64,000 nt of DNA from a virus, in the IMG/VR virus record IMGVR_UViG_3300028299_000003, positions 1 to 64,000 of that record; one strand, written 5' to 3'. Under the pieces are notes generated by a model, which made no database searches, was not told the DNA's origin, and saw only the letters and a program-made list of their open reading frames with translations. Shown here in pieces: positions 4,730-51,563 of this stretch (position 1 is the first letter of the stretch; the number at the start of each line of letters is the position of its first letter). The position numbers and the translations under genes are program-made.

Positions 4730-4900
4730 ATTAAAGATTTAGCCAACTTCTACGCCACAAGCACAATGTAACCATTCACTTTGAGTGACGCTGGGTTGGT
4801 TCCTCAACCCGAAATTTCTTATATTTATAGCAGCATTGATGTCCCTGTCGTGTATAGAACCACATTTTTTACAGGTCCATTCTCTATCATTTAAAGTTAA
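4716..4900 (-). ncRNA. Candidate omega (guide) RNA of TnpB
   Basis: In known IS605 elements the RNA scaffold overlaps the 3' end of tnpB and ends at the element's right end, with the guide taken from adjacent DNA. Here the expected scaffold would end with the 4725-4743 hairpin and GCAGTTCA, and the guide would be the minus-strand bases just below 4716. The 5' limit is arbitrary. Inferred from position, not from a covariance model. Confidence 0.45.
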
Positions 4901-5944
4901 ATCCTTATTGATTGTTCCACAAACATTACAAGTTTTTGATGAAGGATCAAATCTACCAATCACACTTAAATTTTTACCATACCAATCACATTTGTATTCA
5001 ACCATAGATTTAAATTCAGACCACCCCATATCTAAAATGGCTTTATTCAATTCTGATTTTGCTGATTGACCATTAGGTATATATTTTCCATTTTCGTCTT
5101 GCTTTGGCTTACATCTTTTAACCATACCAGAGACATTTAAATCTTCCATACAGATTGTATCATAATTATCAACCAAGTATCGGGAAATTTTATGTAAATA
5201 ATCCTGTCTTTGATTTCTAATGTGTTCGTGTAAAAGGGCAATAACCATTTTTTGTTTTTTGTAGTGATTGGAATCCTTTGTTTTTCTTGCTAAGGATCGC
5301 TGCTCTATCCTTAGTTCATTCATAGCAGATTTAAAGAAATCGTGGTTCTTGAATTTCATTCCATCTGAAGTTATTACAAAATCTTTTATACCTAAATCTA
5401 AACCAACTGATGTTTTAAACATTATAGGTTTCTTTTCAGGTTTTAATTCGCTAGTATCAACTAGTATAGACACATAATATTTGTTAGTAATTGATCTTGA
5501 TACGGTTATAGTTTTTATTTCACCTTTAAACTCTCTATGTAAATCTATGTCTATATATCGTAATTTGGGTAAAAAAATTTGTTTTTTATTCTCACTAAAA
5601 AATACACCTTGAGGTAATTGAAATGACTGCTTCCCATATCTGTTTTTAAATTTAGGAAAGCCAGCACCATTAAAAAAATTATGATAGGCATTATCTAAAT
5701 TGCGAGTAGCCATCTGTAATGCCTGTGATGGACTTTCTTTTAACCAAGGAGCATCTGTATTTTTTAATTCGGTTATTTGTTTATTTAAATCAAAGCAATT
5801 TATGTTTTTCTTATTGCCAGTATAGTTCATTATTTTTGTTTCTAAACCAAGGTTATAGACAAATCTAACCTGACCAAAAATCTTTGATAGGTATTCTTTT
5901 TGGTCCTGATTGGGATATATTCTATATTTATATGCTTTTAACAT
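4739..5944 (-). CDS. tnpB: TnpB RNA-guided nuclease (IS605 OrfB)
   Basis: A full-length 401-residue TnpB. The N-terminus MLKAYKYRIYPNQDQKEYL is the OrfB HTH region. RuvC motif I is VGLDLGIKDF (Asp near 190), motif II is ICMEDLNVSGM (Glu near 278), the zinc finger is CNVCGT...CKKCG (about 337-357), and motif III is HDRDINAAINI. All catalytic residues appear present, so it may be active. TnpB cuts DNA matched by its omega RNA and favours element retention. The neighbouring genes run on the opposite strand. Confidence 0.93.
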   Translation of the reverse strand: MLKAYKYRIYPNQDQKEYLSKIFGQVRFVYNLGLETKIMNYTGNKKNINCFDLNKQITELKNTDAPWLKESPSQALQMATRNLDNAYHNFFNGAGFPKFKNRYGKQSFQLPQGVFFSENKKQIFLPKLRYIDIDLHREFKGEIKTITVSRSITNKYYVSILVDTSELKPEKKPIMFKTSVGLDLGIKDFVITSDGMKFKNHDFFKSAMNELRIEQRSLARKTKDSNHYKKQKMVIALLHEHIRNQRQDYLHKISRYLVDNYDTICMEDLNVSGMVKRCKPKQDENGKYIPNGQSAKSELNKAILDMGWSEFKSMVEYKCDWYGKNLSVIGRFDPSSKTCNVCGTINKDLTLNDREWTCKKCGSIHDRDINAAINIRNFGLRNQPSVTQSEWLHCACGVEVG

Positions 5945-10721: not shown

Positions 10722-11882
10722 ATGGGTGGTCATGCTTTAGATAAATTAGGTATAAAAACAGAACGAAAATCAACAAAAGAACTTTATATAATATTTGATA
10801 AATTAAATAGATATTTTAGTAAATTTGACACTACTATACCAAGATTTTATAGAAATAAGAAAACACATGGTGATTTAGATATTTTGATTAAAGTTTCTAG
10901 TAATGAAATAATATATAATATTGTTAAAGATAGAATAAATCCCGATGGATTAATAGTTAATGATAATATTATAACATTTGATTATGATAATTGTCAAGTA
11001 GATTTAATTTGTATAAAAGAAGATATCTGGGAATCAGCGAAAATCTATTATTTATATGATCCTTTACCAAATCTTTTTGGCAAGACAGCTCATGGATTTG
11101 GTTTAAGATTTGGAATGGATGGATTATTTTATAAATTTATAGGAAAAGGTGGAACGAATACTCATGTGATTAAATTAACAACAAATCCTAGAAAAATATT
11201 TGAGTTTCTAGGTTTTGATTATGATAGATTTGAAGAAGGGTTTGATAATGTTACTGATATTTATGAATTCATAGTAAATGGAAAATTTTATGATAAAGAA
11301 ATGTTTAAACCAGAGAATTTAATCGCGGTTGATAGAAAAAGAAGTATGAATAGACCATCATATCGTGCTTTTTTAGAATATTCAAAATCAACAACGTCAA
11401 ATTTCACATTTGATAAAAATAAAAATGTTTATATAGATTATATTGATGAAAATTTTCCAGGGTTTAAAGAAAAATTAAATGTTTATATAGAACGGGATAA
11501 TATGATAGATCCTAGAAAAAAATTCAGGGAAGCGATATCAAATCACAAACCAGGAAAATTACTTGGAACAATTATCGGATATTATACAAAATCTAAAGAT
11601 GATTTTAATAAATTTATTATAGAAAGTGATATTGAGGCAATAAAAAAAGATTTTGATAACTTCTATATAGGATTCAATAAAAATGAAAATCTTTTTCTAA
11701 AGAAAATAACTGATTATGAAACATTTAAAATGACAGTTAAAAATTATGATATAACAAATCATAATTCCATATCTAATTATGACAGCAGGCAATCTAAAGA
11801 AATTCCATGGGAAGATGTATTTATTAAACCAAAAAATAGTGATAGATATATAAAACCATATGAGAAAGGAAAATTATTTTAA
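10722..11882 (+). CDS. Nucleotidyltransferase-fold protein (Pol-beta superfamily)
   Basis: A 386-residue protein. Near residues 48-56 it has HGDLDILI and about 45 residues later CQVDLICI, giving the spaced acidic residues of Pol-beta-type nucleotidyltransferases. A GGHA motif at residues 2-5 may belong to the active site. The rest is a helical C-terminal region. Candidates are RNA or tRNA end-modifying enzymes, which would fit the nearby tRNA cluster, but the substrate is not visible. Confidence 0.6.
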   Translation: MGGHALDKLGIKTERKSTKELYIIFDKLNRYFSKFDTTIPRFYRNKKTHGDLDILIKVSSNEIIYNIVKDRINPDGLIVNDNIITFDYDNCQVDLICIKEDIWESAKIYYLYDPLPNLFGKTAHGFGLRFGMDGLFYKFIGKGGTNTHVIKLTTNPRKIFEFLGFDYDRFEEGFDNVTDIYEFIVNGKFYDKEMFKPENLIAVDRKRSMNRPSYRAFLEYSKSTTSNFTFDKNKNVYIDYIDENFPGFKEKLNVYIERDNMIDPRKKFREAISNHKPGKLLGTIIGYYTKSKDDFNKFIIESDIEAIKKDFDNFYIGFNKNENLFLKKITDYETFKMTVKNYDITNHNSISNYDSRQSKEIPWEDVFIKPKNSDRYIKPYEKGKLF

Positions 11883-12637: not shown

Positions 12638-12726
12638 TAGTCCTAGAGGGATTCGAACCCCCGTTACCAAGAAAACCTTGGCGTCCTTATCCACTTTAAA
12701 GTGGAGTTCCGTTAGACGATAGGACC
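12638..12726 (-). ncRNA. Aberrant Glu-like tRNA C with D-loop hairpin
   Basis: 89 nt. Acceptor GGTCCTA / TAGGACT and T arm are normal and Glu-like. The D loop carries a perfect palindromic hairpin, TCCACTTTAAAGTGGA (12690-12705). The anticodon arm reads CCAAG-GTTTT-CTTGG, with a 5-nt loop. The outer part of 13002-13156 is nearly identical, so the altered form is conserved between copies. Confidence 0.6.
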
Positions 12727-12850: not shown

Positions 12851-12859
12851 TCAAAGAAC
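12851..12859 (-). promoter_or_regulatory. boxA-like element GTTCTTTGA
   Basis: GTTCTTTGA on the minus strand between the promoter at 12865 and tRNA-like gene D. The same 9-mer recurs at 17697, 18453, 18816, 19808 and 20180 in the tRNA region and resembles rRNA/tRNA boxA antitermination sites. Confidence 0.5.
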
Positions 12860-13001: not shown

Positions 13002-13156
13002 TAGTCCTAGGGGGATTCGAGCCCCCATGACCAAGAAAACCTTGGCGTCCTTATCACACAATCTGGATTTGAACCATAATTCCTCTATTCTATTATATAA
13101 GAGGGTGTTTCCTTTTGTTACACTATTTGTGTGAGTTCCGTTTAGACGATAGGACC
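13002..13156 (-). ncRNA. Glu-like tRNA with a second tRNA-like sequence in its D loop
   Basis: 155 nt. The outer part repeats gene C almost exactly (same acceptor, same CCAAG-GTTTT-CTTGG arm). Where gene C has a 16-nt palindrome, this copy holds about 80 nt (13054-13133). The insert has its own acceptor stem (CACACAA / TTGTGTG), D stem (GTGT / ACAC), an arm CCTCT / AGAGG with a 13-nt loop, and T-loop TTCAAAT. Confidence 0.6.
13054..13133 (-). ncRNA. Inner tRNA-like sequence nested in 13002-13156
   Basis: The 7-bp acceptor stem plus a discriminator A, 4-bp D stem, CCTCT / AGAGG arm and T-loop TTCAAAT are arranged in tRNA order. The central loop is 13 nt rather than 7 and no anticodon can be assigned. 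The T stem has one mismatch. Confidence 0.5.
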
Positions 13157-13222
13157 TGAAATCATATATAAGATGATTTCGTATTTTTAATATTTTCAAA
13201 TTTTCAATGAACGATTACAATA

Positions 13223-13254
13223 CAAAGATAAGAATTATTCTGATACTATACAAA
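13223..13254 (-). promoter_or_regulatory. Host-type promoter of the nested tRNA block
   Basis: Minus strand TTTG (251-254), 20-nt spacer, TATCTTTG (223-230). It fits the Bacteroidota consensus and lies about 67 nt before the 5' end of 13002-13156. Confidence 0.7.
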
Positions 13255-13274
13255 TTTTTCTTGGATAAAATAAA

Positions 13275-14227
13275 AAAAATGGAATGAGACTACTTCCACT
13301 TCTGACTGATACCTTCATTGTATTATCCCTTTGACTCCCATCAGAGGGTTCTCAATTTGTCCACATCCACCAGGGATGTCTATCAGCGACGCTGCCGTTT
13401 TATAGTTGGTGACTCAACTTTTACCATCAATCATATTCAACTTTCCGAATACCCTCTGCTTTCGGGGCAGTTCGTGGCCGCTAGACCACTAGGTGCATCT
13501 TTCAATCAAATTCATCCGTCTTGGGAACTTCAGAACTCTCGGTTCACCCGTAGGTGCTAAGAATTAAGCGACTTTCAGATTGATGTTGAGTGGGCCTTTC
13601 CATTTGATAACAAAATGCAGGAATTGAACCTACGTTTTTTATTTAAGCGATAAATGCCTTACCACTAGGCAAATTTTGTTAGTCCACCAAGAAGTGCCCA
13701 CTCAGCTGTTCTATATCCTTTTGAGATATAAAATTCAACACTTCTCATGCGTTTCGGGCTACCGACCCTACTGTGCGGTTCTTCAAGAATCCTGACCCCT
13801 CGTTCTACCAAGGAATCATTCACCTCTGGAACTATTAGATAGCCATCACGTTGGTCTGCTTTGACAGTCTAATCACTCCTTATCCAATCAGATGTATCAA
13901 TCGGCTGACGAATGGCGTTGGGTGTCACCCCATATTAGAGAAGCTCCTTACCCATTGCCGTGACAATGGGGGCTTACCTCTCGTATTCTTCCCACAGAAC
14001 CATAACCGATTTTCCACCTTAGTTCCACCGAAGTGAAACCCGCCACTGGGATGCGTTAGGATGAAGTTTGCTTGGATGAACTACCCGAAAGTAGCAGGAG
14101 ATTGTGAACATTTACTCCTCTTTTACACCTTACGATGTATTATCCTTTATCCCCCGAAGGGGAAAACTTCCCAAACAAAGTTAATTTTTTTACAATAAAT
14201 ATAAGAACATTTTTTAATTTCAAATTC
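13275..14227 (-). ncRNA. Giant structured RNA (GOLLD/ROOL-like) with embedded tRNA
   Basis: About 950 nt without a credible ORF and visibly richer in G+C than the rest of the window, with many local hairpins. A host-type promoter (14234-14264) lies just upstream and a weak hairpin plus T-run (13271-13298) closes it. A tRNA-like arm (13610-13679) sits on a GAGTGGGC / GCCCACTC stem (13588-13595 with 13696-13703). GOLLD and ROOL are large phage RNAs found beside tRNAs, and GOLLD can contain a tRNA. The class assignment is by length, context and embedded tRNA only. Confidence 0.65.
13610..13679 (-). tRNA. tRNA-like arm inside the giant RNA
   Basis: Acceptor ACAAAAT / ATTTTGT, D arm TGCC / GGCA, T arm GTAGG-TTCAATT-CCTGC. 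The anticodon arm is best read as ATTTA-TCGCT-TAAAT, a 5-nt loop without U33, so the amino acid cannot be assigned and decoding is doubtful. Confidence 0.55.
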
Positions 14228-14233
14228 GTTTTA

Positions 14234-14264
14234 CAAAGATACGAAGATTTTTTATATCGGCAAA
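14234..14264 (-). promoter_or_regulatory. Host-type promoter of the giant RNA
   Basis: Minus strand TTTG (261-264), 19-nt spacer, TATCTTTG (234-241). Transcription would begin near 14227 and run into the structured RNA. Confidence 0.75.
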
Positions 14265-16084: not shown

Positions 16085-16393
16085 CTAATTTTCATTTTCT
16101 TTTTTTCCTTTCTTACATATAGGACATACTACAACTTGTTGTAAGGTTATGGAATCTATATCTACAATAATATAACCTTTATTATTACAATTTGCACATC
16201 TAAATTTGTTATATTTACACATAACAATATTCATTTCTTCTTTATAACTAGGAATGTGTCTATTATCACATGCTCTGTCACCAATCATACCAAATCCAAA
16301 ACATTTTTTAACATCATTTTTAGATAGAGTACACACTCTACAAATTCCATTAATTCGTTCTTCTTGGGTATGAGGTTTCATTTCATTCATCAA
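16085..16393 (-). CDS. Zinc-ribbon protein
   Basis: A 102-residue protein with three Cys groups: ICRVC near residue 17, RCANCNNKG near residue 65 and VCPICKKG near residue 89. The last two form a zinc ribbon. It overlaps the start of the endonuclease upstream by 11 nt. Function unknown. Confidence 0.65.
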   Translation of the reverse strand: MMNEMKPHTQEERINGICRVCTLSKNDVKKCFGFGMIGDRACDNRHIPSYKEEMNIVMCKYNKFRCANCNNKGYIIVDIDSITLQQVVVCPICKKGKKENEN

Positions 16394-17156
16394 TATATTT
16401 TTTTAACTTTTCAAATTCATTTTCAACAAATTCATTATTCTCTCTACCCATATCCTTTATTACATATGGAATATATCCACAGTTTTTAATTTCTTTTATT
16501 TTAATTCTATCTCTATTTTTCACTTGTTTAATTGAATGTTTTTCTTTTATTTTTTCATAATGCCATTTTCCATTCCACAATATCGCTATTTTATAATCTT
16601 CTATTATTATATCAGCGTCCCATCCATTAAAAATTGATTCATTAGTTTTAATATTATTAAAATATTCTTTACATAATTCAGAAAAATATATTTCATTTTT
16701 ACTTCTTCTATTCTGATTTAGAACTGAGGCTCTACCACCCTTTATTGCTTTATCTATATTATTTTTATTTGAATATGTTATAGAACACTTGTTAGAACAA
16801 AAAATTCTATTTTCAGTTATTCTATGCTCAAATATTTTATTACAATATTTACAAATTGTACTTATTCTTTTAATATGATTTCTACCAATCAATGACTCAC
16901 TTTTCTTTTTCTTATCATCATCATCCCAATCTCTACTATTGGCACAACTTCTAGAACAATAATATTTTTCTTTTTTAGGAAAAAGTTTTTCTCTTTCCTC
17001 TATTTCAAATTCCTTTTTACAATTATTACAAGTAACTATAAATTTTTTGAATTCACCATACTTTTTATTAACATATCCACCTTGGTGTATATTTTGACAA
17101 GAAGTATTACAATATTTATTTTTTACAGGTTTTCCACAATTTAAACATTTATTCAT
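16383..17156 (-). CDS. Zinc-finger homing endonuclease (PD-(D/E)XK / EDxHD-like)
   Basis: A 257-residue protein. The N-terminal half has several Cys4 fingers (CLNCGK...CNTSC; CNNCKK...CSRSC; CKYCNK...CSNKC). The C-terminal nuclease part has RSKNEIYFSEL, WDADIIIEDYKIAILWNGKW and then HYEK, matching the nuclease core seen in many phage free-standing homing enzymes. It lies at the edge of the tRNA cluster. Target unknown. Confidence 0.7.
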   Translation of the reverse strand: MNKCLNCGKPVKNKYCNTSCQNIHQGGYVNKKYGEFKKFIVTCNNCKKEFEIEEREKLFPKKEKYYCSRSCANSRDWDDDDKKKKSESLIGRNHIKRISTICKYCNKIFEHRITENRIFCSNKCSITYSNKNNIDKAIKGGRASVLNQNRRSKNEIYFSELCKEYFNNIKTNESIFNGWDADIIIEDYKIAILWNGKWHYEKIKEKHSIKQVKNRDRIKIKEIKNCGYIPYVIKDMGRENNEFVENEFEKLKKYIDE

Positions 17157-17391: not shown

Positions 17392-17690
17392 CGGCCCGTG
17401 TAGGATTCGAACCTACGACCAACAGATTACACATTATCCATAATTTTCATTACGGGGTGGACTATATCATCATCTCTACTGAGATGTCGGACGCTATTAA
17501 AGGTTTATTGATTGATTTTCTCACCTTTTAGTCTCTGCACCTTCCCAAATACTCTTATAATCTTCTCTGGGCTTGGATCAGGATTGCCATATTAAAGGTT
17601 TCCCTGAGTTCATCCGATTTTCCATATGTGGTCACCCACATACGCTGCAATCTTTACAGTCTGCTGCTCTACCAGCTGAGCTAACGAGCC
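17392..17690 (-). tRNA. tRNA-Thr(UGU) interrupted by a group I intron
   Basis: The joined exons give acceptor GGCTCGT / ACGGGCC, D arm GCTC / GAGC, anticodon arm GCAGA-CTTGTAA-TCTGT (TGT) and T-loop TTCGAAT. The intron falls after U33. This junction is the one that restores a canonical 7-nt loop. Confidence 0.85.
17432..17657 (-). other. Group I intron in tRNA-Thr
   Basis: 226 nt. Core elements are readable on the minus strand: AATCCTGATCCAAGCC (P/Q, 17570-17585), GGTGCAGAGACTA (R, 17529-17541) and GATATAGTCC (S, 17459-17468). The 5' exon ends in T and the intron ends in G, as required for self-splicing. No ORF lies inside it. Confidence 0.9.
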
Positions 17691-17696
17691 ATTATT

Positions 17697-17705
17697 TCAA
17701 AGAAC
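17697..17705 (-). promoter_or_regulatory. boxA-like element GTTCTTTGA
   Basis: Lies between tRNA-Arg(GCG) and the 5' end of the intron-bearing tRNA-Thr. Confidence 0.45.
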
Positions 17706-17945: not shown

Positions 17946-18341
17946 TTATTTTAACCATTTTCTTATTGCGTTATCACTTACACCATATTTTCTTCCTGTT
18001 CCTTTATATCCAAGTTCTTCAATATCTTTTAATAGTGTTTCTTTATCAGGTCTTTCTACTTTTCTTTGTTTTAAATCTGCACATTTTTTACATCTTTTTG
18101 ATTGTCTATCTTTTTTGTTGCCACATTTACAATAATAATTTCCATTATAGAATCCATAATTATTTTTTATATTTTTTGCACCATGTGTGTCTAAAGTTAC
18201 ATTACAATTTGGACAAACAATTCTTAAATTTTCTAATCTATTATCATCATTTATACCATTAATATGATCCAATACAAATATTAATTTTTTCCCCATCCAT
18301 TCTTCATCTTGACCACAAATTTCACATTTTTTTTCTTTCAA
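17946..18341 (-). CDS. HNH endonuclease, N-terminally truncated
   Basis: A 131-residue protein. The HNH core is CEIC, then FVLDHINGINDDNRLENLRI and VCPNC. A second zinc pair (CKCGNKK...CKKCADLKQRK) and a C-terminal helix-turn-helix (GTGRKYGVSDNAIRKW) follow. The 242-residue relative at 19043 has an extra N-terminal domain. Here that part (about 18342-18470) is in another frame, and the only start in frame is a TTG. Homing in the tRNA cluster is likely. Confidence 0.7.
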   Translation of the reverse strand: MKEKKCEICGQDEEWMGKKLIFVLDHINGINDDNRLENLRIVCPNCNVTLDTHGAKNIKNNYGFYNGNYYCKCGNKKDRQSKRCKKCADLKQRKVERPDKETLLKDIEELGYKGTGRKYGVSDNAIRKWLK

Positions 18342-18470
18342 TCCTTCATAGAATTCTTAACAATATTAGTAAAATGATTTTCTTCATATCTATTTTGCAT
18401 ATTCTTTTTTATTTGTATATTAAAATCTGAATACCAAAAACTGTCAATTAAATCAAAGAACGTCTTTTTT
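18342..18470 (-). pseudogene. Frameshifted N-terminal part of the HNH gene
   Basis: The minus-strand frame reads DLIDSFWYSDFNIQIKKN and ends NIVKNSMKD-stop directly before the HNH frame resumes as GLKEKKCEIC. The related gene at 19043 reads MDGYKEKKCEIC in one frame. A one-base indel near 18345 explains this. A boxA-like GTTCTTTGA (18453-18461) overlaps it. Confidence 0.5.
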
Positions 18471-18471
18471 G

Positions 18472-18548
18472 TTGGGAAGGTGGGATTTGAACCCACATGT
18501 GACCAGTTACCGTTTCAACACTTTATAAGAGTGAGCGGATACATCCCA
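18472..18548 (-). tRNA. tRNA-Ile(UAU) with rearranged D region
   Basis: 77 nt. Acceptor TGGGATG / CTTCCCA, T arm GTGGG-TTCAAAT-CCCAC, anticodon arm CACT-CTTATAA-AGTG (TAT). Only seven nucleotides separate the acceptor and anticodon arms. A 21-nt variable region (TGAAACGGTAAC...) carries the CGG that can pair with the 5' CCG. Confidence 0.65.
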
Positions 18549-18592
18549 GTTTTTATATTGTTAGTGTGAGTGGATACGATGAATTGAATTTG

Positions 18593-18669
18593 TCGGATTG
18601 GGTGGGGTCGAACCACCATGTAACCAATTAACCTTTCAACTGCTTATCAGGCAGAGGGTTTACAATCCG
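18593..18669 (-). tRNA. tRNA-Ile(GAU) with rearranged D region
   Basis: 77 nt, the same layout as 18472-18548. Acceptor CGGATTG / CAATCCG, anticodon arm CTGC-CTGATAA-GCAG (GAT), T arm GGTGG-TTCGACC-CCACC. The 5' ACC pairs with GGT in the 21-nt variable region, a covarying match to the CCG / CGG pair of the sister gene. Confidence 0.65.
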
Positions 18670-18710
18670 TTTTGTTAGAGAATCACTCTAACCAATTGAG
18701 CTACACACCC
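18670..18710 (-). pseudogene. 5' half of a tRNA
   Basis: GGGTGTG-TA followed by a canonical D arm (GCTC-AATTGGTTA-GAGT), then a hairpin (GTTAGAG-TGATT-CTCTAAC) instead of an anticodon arm. No matching 3' acceptor strand exists. It lies directly upstream of tRNA-Ile(GAU). Confidence 0.5.
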
Positions 18711-18815: not shown

Positions 18816-18863
18816 TCAAAGAACCATTTTACAAATTTACAAAATTATTTCCACATTTCCAAC
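18816..18863 (-). promoter_or_regulatory. Promoter-like TAAATTTG plus boxA-like element
   Basis: Minus strand TAAATTTG (18832-18839) with a poor upstream GTTG (18860-18863), then GTTCTTTGA (18816-18824), then tRNA-Leu(UAA). The order promoter, boxA, tRNA repeats that seen at 12.85 kb. Confidence 0.45.
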
Positions 18864-19052: not shown

Positions 19053-19717
19053 TTCTCGTAATTTTTTTTCCATTTTCTTATACTATTATCACTCACTCCG
19101 TATTTTCTTCCTGTTCCTCTATATCCAAATTCTTTTATTTCTTTTAATAATTTATCATAAGATGGTCTTTTTACTTTTCTTTGTTTTAATTTTGAACAAT
19201 CCATACAATATTTACTATTTTCTTGTTTTTTATTTCCACACTCACATTTCTGTTGTGGATTTTTATTTATTTTTGATTTTTGATTTAAACTCTTACAATA
19301 TGTATTTGTTTGAGCGTGACAATTTGGACAAAGTATTTGAATATTATTAAATTCATTATTAAATCTATTGCCATCTATATGATGAATTTCTAATGGTGCA
19401 TCTTTATTATTCCATTCGGTAAGATTACAAATTTCACATTTTTTTTCTTTATATCCATCCATTATTAATTTTTTTCTCAGTGTGTTGCTACTTATTAATG
19501 ACCCGTTAAATAAATATTTAGAAACATGTTTTCTATTATTTGATATTTTTTTACCCTTTAATCCCATATTGCCATTATATTCAATATTCATTTTTTTCAA
19601 ATATCCATTTAATGTTGATTGTCTACATATAAGTTCTTTACAAATGAAAGATTTTGGTTGATTATCATTTATCCATTCTAATATCTCTTCTTTTTTTTCT
19701 AATATATCTTTTCTCAT
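19043..19717 (-). CDS. HNH homing endonuclease
   Basis: A 224-residue protein from the chosen start MRKDILEKKEEI (a longer upstream start is mostly hydrophobic and unlikely). The N-terminal helical DNA-binding part includes an HTH-like SFICKELICRQSTLNGYLKK. The HNH core is CEIC...LEIHHIDGNRFNNEFNNI and LCPNC. A zinc pair (CECGNKK...CMDCSKLKQRK) and a C-terminal GTGRKYGVSDNSIRKW helix-turn-helix follow. Its stop lies inside tRNA-Leu(UAG). It is a paralogue of the truncated HNH gene at 17946. Confidence 0.85.
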   Translation of the reverse strand: MRKDILEKKEEILEWINDNQPKSFICKELICRQSTLNGYLKKMNIEYNGNMGLKGKKISNNRKHVSKYLFNGSLISSNTLRKKLIMDGYKEKKCEICNLTEWNNKDAPLEIHHIDGNRFNNEFNNIQILCPNCHAQTNTYCKSLNQKSKINKNPQQKCECGNKKQENSKYCMDCSKLKQRKVKRPSYDKLLKEIKEFGYRGTGRKYGVSDNSIRKWKKNYEKAK

Positions 19718-19821
19718 CTTTTTTTTTATTTTATATATTAAAAATAAAAAGTCAAAAATGGTAAACACCATAATTATTTTTATAATATGTATATTATTTT
19801 AATTATTTCAAAGAACTTATG

Positions 19822-20179: not shown

Positions 20180-20188
20180 TCAAAGAAC
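20180..20188 (-). promoter_or_regulatory. boxA-like element upstream of tRNA-Tyr
   Basis: GTTCTTTGACATCTTGG on the minus strand, 17 nt before tRNA-Tyr. The extended form is also found at about 60066 on the plus strand (GTTCTTTGATGTCTTGG). Confidence 0.5.
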
Positions 20189-48473: not shown

Positions 48474-51400
48474 ATGGCTACGATAGACCAAAAATTTGTA
48501 GAAAAACTAGAACTATTCACCAATTCATTAGAACAAATAACAGAACTTCTTAAAGAACAAACTAAGAAGGATAATACTGATGTTGTTAATAAACTTCTAA
48601 AGAATATGGACGAAGATAGAATGTCTGTTGTTATAGAAGAATTAAAAGCGGTTAGAACCGATCTTAAAGAAATAAAAACAGATACAAAATCAATCAAATC
48701 ATCAATAGATGAATTAAAGAAAGAAAAAGAAAGAAATAATTTATTCAATAGAATACAAGATCCAGAGAATAAAGATAAAATTGTTGATGGTATAAAAGTT
48801 ATTGGTTTAATCGCTGGTGGTGTTCTCGCGATTGGATTAGCGTTTAAAATAGTTGGTGAAGTAGATTATTTATCAGTACTATCATTAAGTGCTGGTATGG
48901 TTGCGACTGGATATGCGTTTACAATGATTTCAAAAAATCTGAAAGAACAGAAATTATCTTTAAAAGATATTTTTTTGACCGCGTCTGTTCTTCCTATAAT
49001 GGCTGCTGGGTTGGTGATATCTAGTGCTATATTTAGTAGAGGATTATTCACTTTAACCAAAGAACAAGGATTTACATTAGTTGTTATATCAGCGACGATG
49101 GGGATGGCGATGTATCTAATGACTAAAGCTATTACAGATACAAAGAAAGTATCAGAAGGAAAAATAGAAACTAATTTATCTAGTTATATGATGTTACCAG
49201 TTATTTTACCATTGATAGCGAGTGGAATTTTAATATCTGGATGGATTCTAAGTGCTGTACCAACAATAGCACCATCAAAATTATTATCTATTGGTGTAAT
49301 AACATTAATCGCTGGTGTGTCATTGTGGTTAATGACAAAAGCGTTATCAAAAACAAAAAAAGAAGGTGATGGAAAAGATTTAAAATCTAATTTTCAAAAT
49401 TATTTGGCGTTACCTGTTATTTTACCATTAATAGCTAGTGGATTGGTAGCAGCTAGTATAATATATCTTATGATGAAAACTATGAGTAAAGATGAAGCTA
49501 TAGATCTATTATTGACTAGTGCTGCTATAGGTGCTTCAATGTTAGTAATGATACCGACGATATACTTGTTGAGTAAAACTGGATTAAAACCAGGGGATAC
49601 AGCTAAAATGACACTAATCTTACCACTTATAGCTGGTGGAATAGCTGTGTCATCATGGATATTATCAGAAGGAATATATGATGAAAGTAAAGTACCTTCA
49701 TATAAATGGTCATTAATGACTGGATTATCATTCATCGTATTTGGTGGATCAATGTTCTTATTAGGAAAATTTTTAAAGCAACAAGAGATTATAATAGGTG
49801 GATTAGCGGTACTAGGTGTAGCGTTTGTGATGATGGTAGCGTCAAAAATAATAAATGATGGATCATATAAATCTTTTCCATCATATGATTGGTCGTTAGG
49901 AGTTGGATTATCGTTCCTTGTATTTGGTGGTAGTATGGCGGCGTTGGGTTGGTTATCTATGATTGGTGGTGGTTTAGGGATGGTCGCGTTACTCGCTGGT
50001 GGATTAGCGACAATCGGTATGAGTTATGTTATGGTTGAAGTGGATAGAGTAATAAGTGGTGGTTCTTATAAGAAGTTCCCATCATATGATTGGTCAAAAG
50101 GTGTTGGATTATCATTTCTTGTATTTGGTGGTAGTATGGCGGCGTTAGGTGGGTTAATAATAACTGGAATTGGTGCGGTCGCACTTCTAGCTGGCGCCGC
50201 TGCGGTTTGGGGGTTAGGTGAATTAATGGTTGAAGTTGATGATATATTGAGTGGTGGTAAGTGGAAAAAAGATTCTTACCCATCAGAAGAGTGGGCTAAA
50301 GGAGTTGGAACATCATTGGTTCTTTTCGCGGAAGCGGCGGGATCGTCTAGTATATGGGATAAAGTAACAGATTGGATATTTGGATCAAACAAAGATACGA
50401 TGGTTGGGTTAGCTACTGAAATGATAAAGGTCGCGGAAACATTAGGAAGTAGTACAATATGGGATAAGAATCTTAAACATCCATCTGAAAAATGGGCTAA
50501 GGGAGTTGGAATATCAATGATGTATTTCGCTCAGATTTTTGAAATACTTGATAAAGTTGATATAGACTCTGATGAATTTGGAGAAGAATCTGTTAATTTA
50601 ATAAAAGGTATAGAACAAGTCGCTGTTTATTTAAACGATAGTAAGATAAAATGGGATAACATCAGTACAATGCAAAAATTACCAGTCTGGGGAGATAATG
50701 TATCAAAAGGTATTTCATCATTTGTTAAGGTTCTTGACGAAATTGATGAAGCGAGTTATGGAAAGAATGATATAAATATATTTGAATTAACGTTAGATTC
50801 AATTGTTAGTGCTTCCACTAAATTGAAAGGTGTATCAATTGGATCTATAAATGTTAGTGATGTATCAAAAGGTATATCAGAGTTCATCAAGTTACTAGAT
50901 GAACTTGATGAAGCGAGTTATGGTAGAAATGATATAAATATATTTGAATTAACGTTAGATTCAATCGCTAGTGCTTCTAAAAAATTGAAAGGAGTAAAAT
51001 TTGATTCAATAGAAGGATTTACAAAGAGTATTAAAGATTTATTTGAATTCACTAGTAATCAGAGTTTAACAAAAGGAATTAGTATAGATGAAATAATATC
51101 AAATTTTTCAAAACTCGGAGATATTAATACTTCTGGAATAGATAATTTATCATATTCATTGAAGAGTGTTAAAGATGTTTTAGATAATATTGACACTGTT
51201 GGATTACAGAAATTAACAAGTTTTACAAATGATATGTTAGTATTATCATTAATTGATGAATCTAAGTTAGAAAACTTTATAGAAACTATTGATGATAAGA
51301 AATCAGAATTAATAGAAATATTATCTTTAGGTAGAATGGGTGAAAATGTAGGTGGAAATTTTGAAACAACAGTTGTATCTAGACAAATAATTCAAAAAGA

Positions 51401-51563
51401 TACAGAAGAAAAGAAACAAGAAGAAGAAAGATTTAGATCCTTAATGAGTAGATTAGAAATTATGACAAGCATATTCCAAAGTATGTTAGAAGTTAAACGG
51501 ATGGATAATCCAGAAGGCCTTAATTTTACAGAATCAACAAGAAGTAATTTCAACTTCGTCTAA
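48474..51563 (+). CDS. Large hydrophobic repeat protein, tape-measure candidate
   Basis: A 1029-residue protein. Residues 1-95 are coiled-coil-like. Residues about 100-600 hold more than ten hydrophobic segments, including three related repeats (SYKWSLMTGLSFIVFGGSM, SYDWSLGVGLSFLVFGGSM, SYDWSKGVGLSFLVFGGSM). Two later repeats of about 58 residues contain EASYG.NDINIFELTLDSI. The C-terminus is helical. The size and hydrophobic repeats fit a tape measure or membrane-active tail protein; other structural roles remain possible. Confidence 0.6.
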   Translation: MATIDQKFVEKLELFTNSLEQITELLKEQTKKDNTDVVNKLLKNMDEDRMSVVIEELKAVRTDLKEIKTDTKSIKSSIDELKKEKERNNLFNRIQDPENKDKIVDGIKVIGLIAGGVLAIGLAFKIVGEVDYLSVLSLSAGMVATGYAFTMISKNLKEQKLSLKDIFLTASVLPIMAAGLVISSAIFSRGLFTLTKEQGFTLVVISATMGMAMYLMTKAITDTKKVSEGKIETNLSSYMMLPVILPLIASGILISGWILSAVPTIAPSKLLSIGVITLIAGVSLWLMTKALSKTKKEGDGKDLKSNFQNYLALPVILPLIASGLVAASIIYLMMKTMSKDEAIDLLLTSAAIGASMLVMIPTIYLLSKTGLKPGDTAKMTLILPLIAGGIAVSSWILSEGIYDESKVPSYKWSLMTGLSFIVFGGSMFLLGKFLKQQEIIIGGLAVLGVAFVMMVASKIINDGSYKSFPSYDWSLGVGLSFLVFGGSMAALGWLSMIGGGLGMVALLAGGLATIGMSYVMVEVDRVISGGSYKKFPSYDWSKGVGLSFLVFGGSMAALGGLIITGIGAVALLAGAAAVWGLGELMVEVDDILSGGKWKKDSYPSEEWAKGVGTSLVLFAEAAGSSSIWDKVTDWIFGSNKDTMVGLATEMIKVAETLGSSTIWDKNLKHPSEKWAKGVGISMMYFAQIFEILDKVDIDSDEFGEESVNLIKGIEQVAVYLNDSKIKWDNISTMQKLPVWGDNVSKGISSFVKVLDEIDEASYGKNDINIFELTLDSIVSASTKLKGVSIGSINVSDVSKGISEFIKLLDELDEASYGRNDINIFELTLDSIASASKKLKGVKFDSIEGFTKSIKDLFEFTSNQSLTKGISIDEIISNFSKLGDINTSGIDNLSYSLKSVKDVLDNIDTVGLQKLTSFTNDMLVLSLIDESKLENFIETIDDKKSELIEILSLGRMGENVGGNFETTVVSRQIIQKDTEEKKQEEERFRSLMSRLEIMTSIFQSMLEVKRMDNPEGLNFTESTRSNFNFV

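Follow-up and report, generated by a model that had tools for sequence, protein, structure and literature searches.

The element at 13,275–14,227 of the window (the whole 64,000-nt stretch of viral DNA analyzed here) is a GOLLD RNA with a tRNA in its linker, encoded on the minus strand in a Bacteroidota virus. It represents a new member of the family, not something new in kind. The form of the promoter and the relatives of the RNA point to Bacteroidota as the probable host group. We hold with considerable confidence that this gene of a large Bacteroidota virus makes up its own minus-strand unit of about 950 nt, that its product would form a cage, as homology predicts, with the linker tRNA in the lumen, and that it would be transcribed in the manner of a stable RNA.

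An earlier note on this DNA had described about 950 nt without a credible ORF, richer in G+C than the window, and had read them as a GOLLD- or ROOL-like RNA or possibly a new class. The description is confirmed. Inside 13,275–14,227, there is no ORF of at least 60 aa on the minus strand; on the plus strand, the only ORFs are short ones that overlap (80, 61 and 65 aa). The element has a G+C content of 41%, versus about 25% in its surroundings. Its minus strand folds with −286 kcal/mol (z = −3.8 relative to shuffles; z = −2.5 for the plus strand). An Infernal search with the Rfam GOLLD and ROOL models and a covariation analysis, both proposed in the note, were carried out. The GOLLD model (RF02032) matches the minus strand along its full length, from the first position to the last, at 147.4 bits (E 5e-41), and strong covariation is seen across GOLLDs. 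The ROOL model has no match, even at E ≤ 10. According to the note, its proposal would fall if neither a model match nor covariation were seen, or if a coding frame were found; the GOLLD identity stands, because the match is full-length, covariation is strong and no credible reading frame exists. The same searches rule out that the element is a ROOL or belongs to an altogether new class, a possibility of negligible probability, even though size and location beside tRNA genes would suit ROOL equally well.

The score lies 2.6 bits under the RF02032 gathering cut-off of 150 bits, which is a curation threshold and not a biological feature; for this reason, a default Rfam scan leaves the window copy unannotated. 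Among the GOLLDs collected, the nearest has only 57% sequence identity to the window copy, as compared over the 3′ domain. The genomic context is that of other GOLLDs, which are found in phages or prophages near tRNA genes: the DNA comes from an IMG/VR virus record, and ARAGORN identifies 13 tRNA genes in the 64-kb window, every one of them within 12.9–20.2 kb. Coordinates of the features are collected in Table 1.

Table 1. Features of the GOLLD locus, boxA-like motifs of the window, and chromosomal loci (designated by L numbers).
Feature	Position or locus	Strand	Basis or context
Bacteroidota-type promoter: −33 TTTG (14261–14264), 19 nt, −7 TATCTTTG (14234–14241)	14234–14264	−	
boxA-like leader motif, degenerate: GTTCTTATA vs GTTCTTTGA (7/9 letters)	14200–14208	−	position matches exact motif in related leaders
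GOLLD 5′ domain (variable domain of the family), borders approximate	13747–14190	−	fold; motifs common to other GOLLD 5′ domains
GNRA-capped hairpin ACATC-GTAA-GGTGT, then A-AAAG, in 5′ domain	14125–14138	−	same hairpin, with other stems, in relatives
GOLLD 3′ domain, RF02032 positions 1–416	13281–13746	−	cmscan 147.4 bits, E 5e-41; gathering score 150
Linker-closing helix, 5′ strand GAGUGGG	13697–13703	−	7/7 pairs in 51/57 representatives
Embedded tRNA-Lys(CTT) in linker	13608–13680	−	ARAGORN; Rfam RF00005, 55.8 bits
Linker-closing helix, 3′ strand CCCACUC	13588–13594	−	same covariation test as 5′ strand
Terminal GOLLD hairpin GGAA-GUAGUCUCA-UUCC, also terminator stem	13281–13297	−	cmscan alignment
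U8 run of intrinsic terminator	13272–13279	−	sequence
Exact boxA-like GTTCTTTGA	12851–12859, 17697–17705, 18453–18461, 18816–18824, 19808–19816, 20180–20188	−	coding strand of tRNA region
One-mismatch boxA-like copy	13204–13212	−	after own promoter, 13223–13254
Sub-cut-off chromosomal Bacteroidota GOLLDs, 110–146 bits	L296, L309, L314, L318, L343, L346, L347		tRNA arrays
Flavobacteriaceae chromosomal linkers with permuted tRNA-like domain	L296, L301, L305, L306, L314–L316, L319, L325–L327, L330, L331, L344, L346		

The promoter and terminator attributed to the element in the earlier note are both present. The promoter is exactly as claimed, TTTG and TATCTTTG separated by 19 nt, which would place the start of transcription near 14,227. 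By count, this pattern is found seven times in the window versus 4.9 expected, which is not significant; four of the seven matches are located at the start of minus-strand units for tRNA or GOLLD (20,448, 14,264, 13,254 and 12,895). A −7 box (TANNTTTG) lies no more than 75 nt upstream of the position of the boxA motif (see below) in 24 of 37 GOLLD loci, 36 with an exact motif plus the window copy, where 1.5 are expected. At the other end, the final GOLLD hairpin is followed by eight U. A run of at least four U follows the terminal hairpin in 31 of 57 GOLLD representatives (sequences of <85% identity), versus a background of 10.6%. The GOLLD fold thus includes the terminator. In our model, the unit would run from the TTTG/TATCTTTG promoter near 14,240 to the terminal hairpin and U8 near 13,272.

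Relatives were collected using DNA patterns from the GOLLD 3′ end. One pattern identified 32 viral contigs, all of which match RF02032, and a looser one identified at least 118, with matches in 78 of the 80 examined; for both patterns together, 110 of 112 other viral records match the model. GOLLD is also present in 4 of 25 viral records, including a 372-kb contig, that share the neighboring protein encoded at 16,383–17,156. A protein-based search with a 386-aa neighbor (10,722–11,882) yielded no relatives. The leader resembles regions of Prevotella Lak phages in blastn (E 0.3–4), which we take as chance, since these regions contain no tRNA and no Rfam family. Two further proteins of the window can be mentioned here. 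The 1029-aa product of 48,474–51,563 (plus strand) has as its only relatives in the phage collection proteins of 635–735 kb metagenomic huge phages (27–29% identity), and 4,739–5,944 (minus strand) encodes a TnpB-like OrfB_IS605 protein (Pfam PF01385, PF07282).

GOLLD-like RNAs are found in bacterial chromosomes as well. A genome scan with the stricter DNA pattern returned nothing; the looser scan returned 57 stretches, several of them due to chance, and the analysis was therefore limited to stretches that have the GOLLD hairpin or match the model. These lie in tRNA arrays of Winogradskyella, Psychroserpens, Dokdonia, Saprospiraceae and others. Nine chromosomal loci were scored, of which seven are full-length at 110–146 bits, below the cut-off, one exceeds it, and one is cut by a contig end. 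Because the scores fall under 150 bits, standard annotation misses this chromosomal clade of Bacteroidota.

In the earlier note, the tRNA-like arm was placed on a stem formed by GAGTGGGC and GCCCACTC. This stem is real and covaries across GOLLDs, but it is not a special mount for the tRNA: it is the general GOLLD helix that closes the linker, whether a tRNA is present or absent. One strand is made up of seven bases from the bulge in Rfam's first hairpin and the other of seven bases just after the linker, both of which are drawn unpaired in the nested Rfam structure. A perfect 7-bp helix is seen in 51 of the 57 representatives, which are diverse and contribute 48 distinct 7-mers. Pairing of each strand with its own partner averages 6.84; when strands from different sequences are combined, the average is 4.96. 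The observed total exceeds that of every one of 2000 shuffles. Conserved pairing hence closes the variable linker that the representatives have in their 3′ domain. In the window, the helix is perfect over 7 bp, with 9 bp possible. Since the stem closes the linker in GOLLDs generally, the tRNA hangs in that helix-closed loop.

The inserted arm proves to be a tRNA-Lys(CTT) with a complete cloverleaf, all four arms (acceptor, D, anticodon and T) being present. It occupies the AU-rich linker position of the Rfam consensus (cmscan alignment) and has an 8-bp acceptor stem (AACAAAAU/AUUUUGUU), the T-loop UUCAAUU and no encoded CCA. Its anticodon loop, CGCUUAA, has G at position 33, where a functional elongator would have U; U33 is near-universal in tRNAs. 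The G33 and the lack of an encoded CCA speak against ordinary decoding, and the embedded tRNA may have no decoding role. The idea that such an arm would extend the family overstates its novelty, as tRNAs in GOLLD linkers have been described (PMC12286853), and so has a pseudo-tRNA in a mycobacterial GOLLD (PMC6582537). Among 100 distinct viral GOLLD 3′ domains, window included, ARAGORN calls a linker tRNA in eight, with anticodons for Lys, Glu, Ile, Arg, Leu and His.

It is also conceivable that the GOLLD RNA serves mainly as a precursor, from which RNase P and RNase Z excise an ordinary tRNA-Lys, the remainder falling apart or working as two pieces. The tRNA gene would then occupy a loop that tolerates insertions, and the tRNA would not be cargo. 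In line with this, the acceptor stem is intact, ARAGORN finds no other tRNA-Lys in the window, and the isotype in the slot varies from phage to phage. On the other hand, G33 and the lack of an encoded CCA would be unexpected in a tRNA that decodes. Several linker tRNAs of other GOLLDs are damaged in the acceptor stem or missing the anticodon arm, and most GOLLDs contain no recognizable linker tRNA. On balance, we find a precursor role doubtful, though not far-fetched, and favor the reading of the tRNA as cargo of the RNA.

On the minus strand at 13,002–13,157 lies a tRNA with an insert in the D-loop region; this insert forms a cloverleaf of its own, closed by 8 bp, for which ARAGORN makes no call. 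The tRNA at 12,638–12,726 has a simple hairpin in the corresponding place. A Group I intron (Rfam, 96 bits) interrupts a tRNA gene at 17,438–17,666 (minus strand), apparently in the anticodon loop. The stretch at 18,470–18,700 (minus strand) is odd in that it has several tRNA-like pieces, two T-arm-like motifs among them, but yields no call of a full tRNA. Two related genes for putative HNH-type endonucleases, recognized by eye, lie among the tRNAs at 18,000–18,340 and 19,080–19,700 (minus strand).

In 15 of 33 chromosomal GOLLDs, the linker contains a circularly permuted tRNA-like domain, with the T arm ahead of the D arm. The T arm is followed by the 3′ strand of the acceptor stem, a short loop in which CC or CCA is often found, the 5′ strand of the acceptor stem, the D arm and the anticodon arm. 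The acceptor strands covary, forming 5.47 of 7 pairs with their own partner versus 3.20 across loci, a value reached in none of 10,000 permutations. When a script rotates the order, ARAGORN calls a tRNA in 10 of the 15 domains, versus 1 of 15 unrotated. No permuted tRNA is present in the 100 viral GOLLDs. Several of the permuted domains have no anticodon arm, and "tRNA-like" is therefore the better name. We know of no other permuted tRNA-like domain in bacteria outside tmRNA, and the Flavobacteriaceae domains, as read from their sequences, are possibly the first. A review of permuted tRNAs gives tRNA cases in algae and archaea and, for bacteria, tmRNA only (PMC3978253). Neither these linker domains nor chromosomal Bacteroidota GOLLDs below the Rfam cut-off appear to have been reported.

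Upstream of the 3′ domain, the window copy has a 5′ domain of about 440 nt. Its layout is similar to that of other GOLLDs, and it shares with them a GNRA-capped hairpin followed by AAAG, the one element for which we have statistics: with differing stem sequences, this hairpin is found in 23 of 55 GOLLD representatives, versus 0.48 expected. By eye, the closest layouts are those of L260 and of the Aureispira locus L343. The domain is otherwise divergent, in line with the literature on GOLLD, and the same cage geometry can therefore not be assumed.

Between the promoter and the 5′ domain, 34 of 55 viral GOLLD representatives carry an exact G(T/C)TCTTT(A/G)A, versus 0.46 expected from shuffles, and the opposite strand of these 55 leaders carries none. 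In the window, GTTCTTTGA occurs exactly seven times, six times on the minus strand inside the tRNA region, and several copies directly precede a tRNA. In the rRNA operon of Dokdonia pacifica, GTTCATTGACATATTG occurs 160 nt ahead of 16S and a second time between the 16S and 23S genes. A related host of the GOLLD group thus has the motif in a transcribed rRNA leader, the window copy agreeing with it in 7 of 9 letters. Chromosomal GOLLD leaders of Flavobacteriaceae have the GTTCATTGA variant, as does the rRNA of D. pacifica, and most saprospiracean ones have GTTCTTTGA (23 of 32 overall); thus, the GOLLD leader tends to follow the motif of its group. In rRNA operons, boxA recruits NusB/NusE, with roles in antitermination and rRNA folding (PMC4807359). 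We suggest that a putative boxA of the rRNA type leads many GOLLD units, both viral and in Bacteroidota chromosomes. A literature search of incomplete coverage found no paper linking boxA with GOLLD, and the association is apparently unreported.

The conserved leader motif GTTCTTTGA might instead be some other element, for example, a site of processing or part of an extended promoter. Such a reading gains from the putative nature of the boxA assignment and from those GOLLDs in which the motif is missing. Against it, the motif lies downstream of the −7 box, and is hence transcribed; D. pacifica has the same motif at both places in its rRNA operon; and GOLLD leaders share the variant of their group, flavobacterial or saprospiracean. 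We therefore regard a function other than boxA as unlikely. Yet another reading is that the window contains a decaying copy, a homologous gene that has lost the working cage. The score slightly under the cut-off, the degenerate boxA and the G33 of the tRNA could all be taken as signs of decay. These must be set against a perfect linker helix, an intact promoter and terminator, and pairing kept in most helices of the 3′ domain (cmscan alignment), which make decay very improbable.

Few natural assemblies made of RNA alone are as large as GOLLD cages, which, to our knowledge, have no known function. In the model that we favor, a working GOLLD gene, the 5′ and 3′ domains would be joined in a symmetric, RNA-only cage, as in homologous RNAs. 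The variable, helix-closed linker would face the lumen and carry the tRNA-Lys(CTT), for a total of up to 14 tethered tRNAs per cage. The gene is probably transcribed like a stable RNA by way of an rRNA-type boxA leader; the motif is degenerate in the window copy, whereas most of the GOLLD leaders examined, and the adjoining tRNA units, have it intact. Our best guess for the role is that the cage sequesters tRNA or translation components during infection. Assembly, lumenal location and expression during lysis are all extrapolated from published work on other members: a 14-mer cage of another GOLLD (env-38) has been seen by cryo-EM, and linkers facing the lumen, linker tRNAs and induction on lysis have been described (PMC12286853).

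More generally, GOLLD cages may be made like rRNA, with boxA-led units recruiting the Nus complex, which would make transcription processive and assist folding of the RNA as it is transcribed. The tRNA-like domain would be tethered as cargo and, in Flavobacteriaceae chromosomes, would be circularly permuted (the first such case in bacteria outside tmRNA) and anchored via its variable-loop side rather than its acceptor end. We see this broader proposal as evenly poised between right and wrong. The window locus adds a GOLLD with a linker tRNA that default annotation misses, and the rRNA-type leader predicts Nus-dependent synthesis. Other testable handles are the conserved helix closing the cargo loop and the recurrent tRNA cargo of various isotypes. 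The chromosomal versions occur in culturable Flavobacteriaceae, where function is open to study by deletion, free of phage.

Finally, the element can be compared with known systems. Like ROOL, which also forms a cage, it is a giant phage or prophage RNA near tRNAs, although sequence and structure differ and ROOL has no match in the window. It resembles the mycobacterial GOLLD, which contains a pseudo-tRNA (PMC6582537), in its tRNA-array context and in having a tRNA or pseudo-tRNA inside the RNA; that GOLLD is integrated in Actinobacteria, whereas the one described here is in a Bacteroidota virus. Compared to RF02032 and env-38 (PMC12286853), it differs in its score below the Rfam cut-off, divergent 5′ domain, Bacteroidota promoter and G33 in tRNA-Lys. 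Shared with them are the whole 3′ domain, a linker in the same place, the terminal hairpin with its GUAnUCUCA loop, the tRNA-rich phage region and, as in some members, the linker tRNA. With respect to rRNA operons, the motif precedes GOLLD and phage tRNA units instead of rRNA, and is degenerate in the GOLLD copy of the window; nevertheless, GOLLD units share with rRNA operons that have a boxA leader (PMC4807359) the same short motif, placed in the transcribed leader ahead of an RNA that is long and untranslated.
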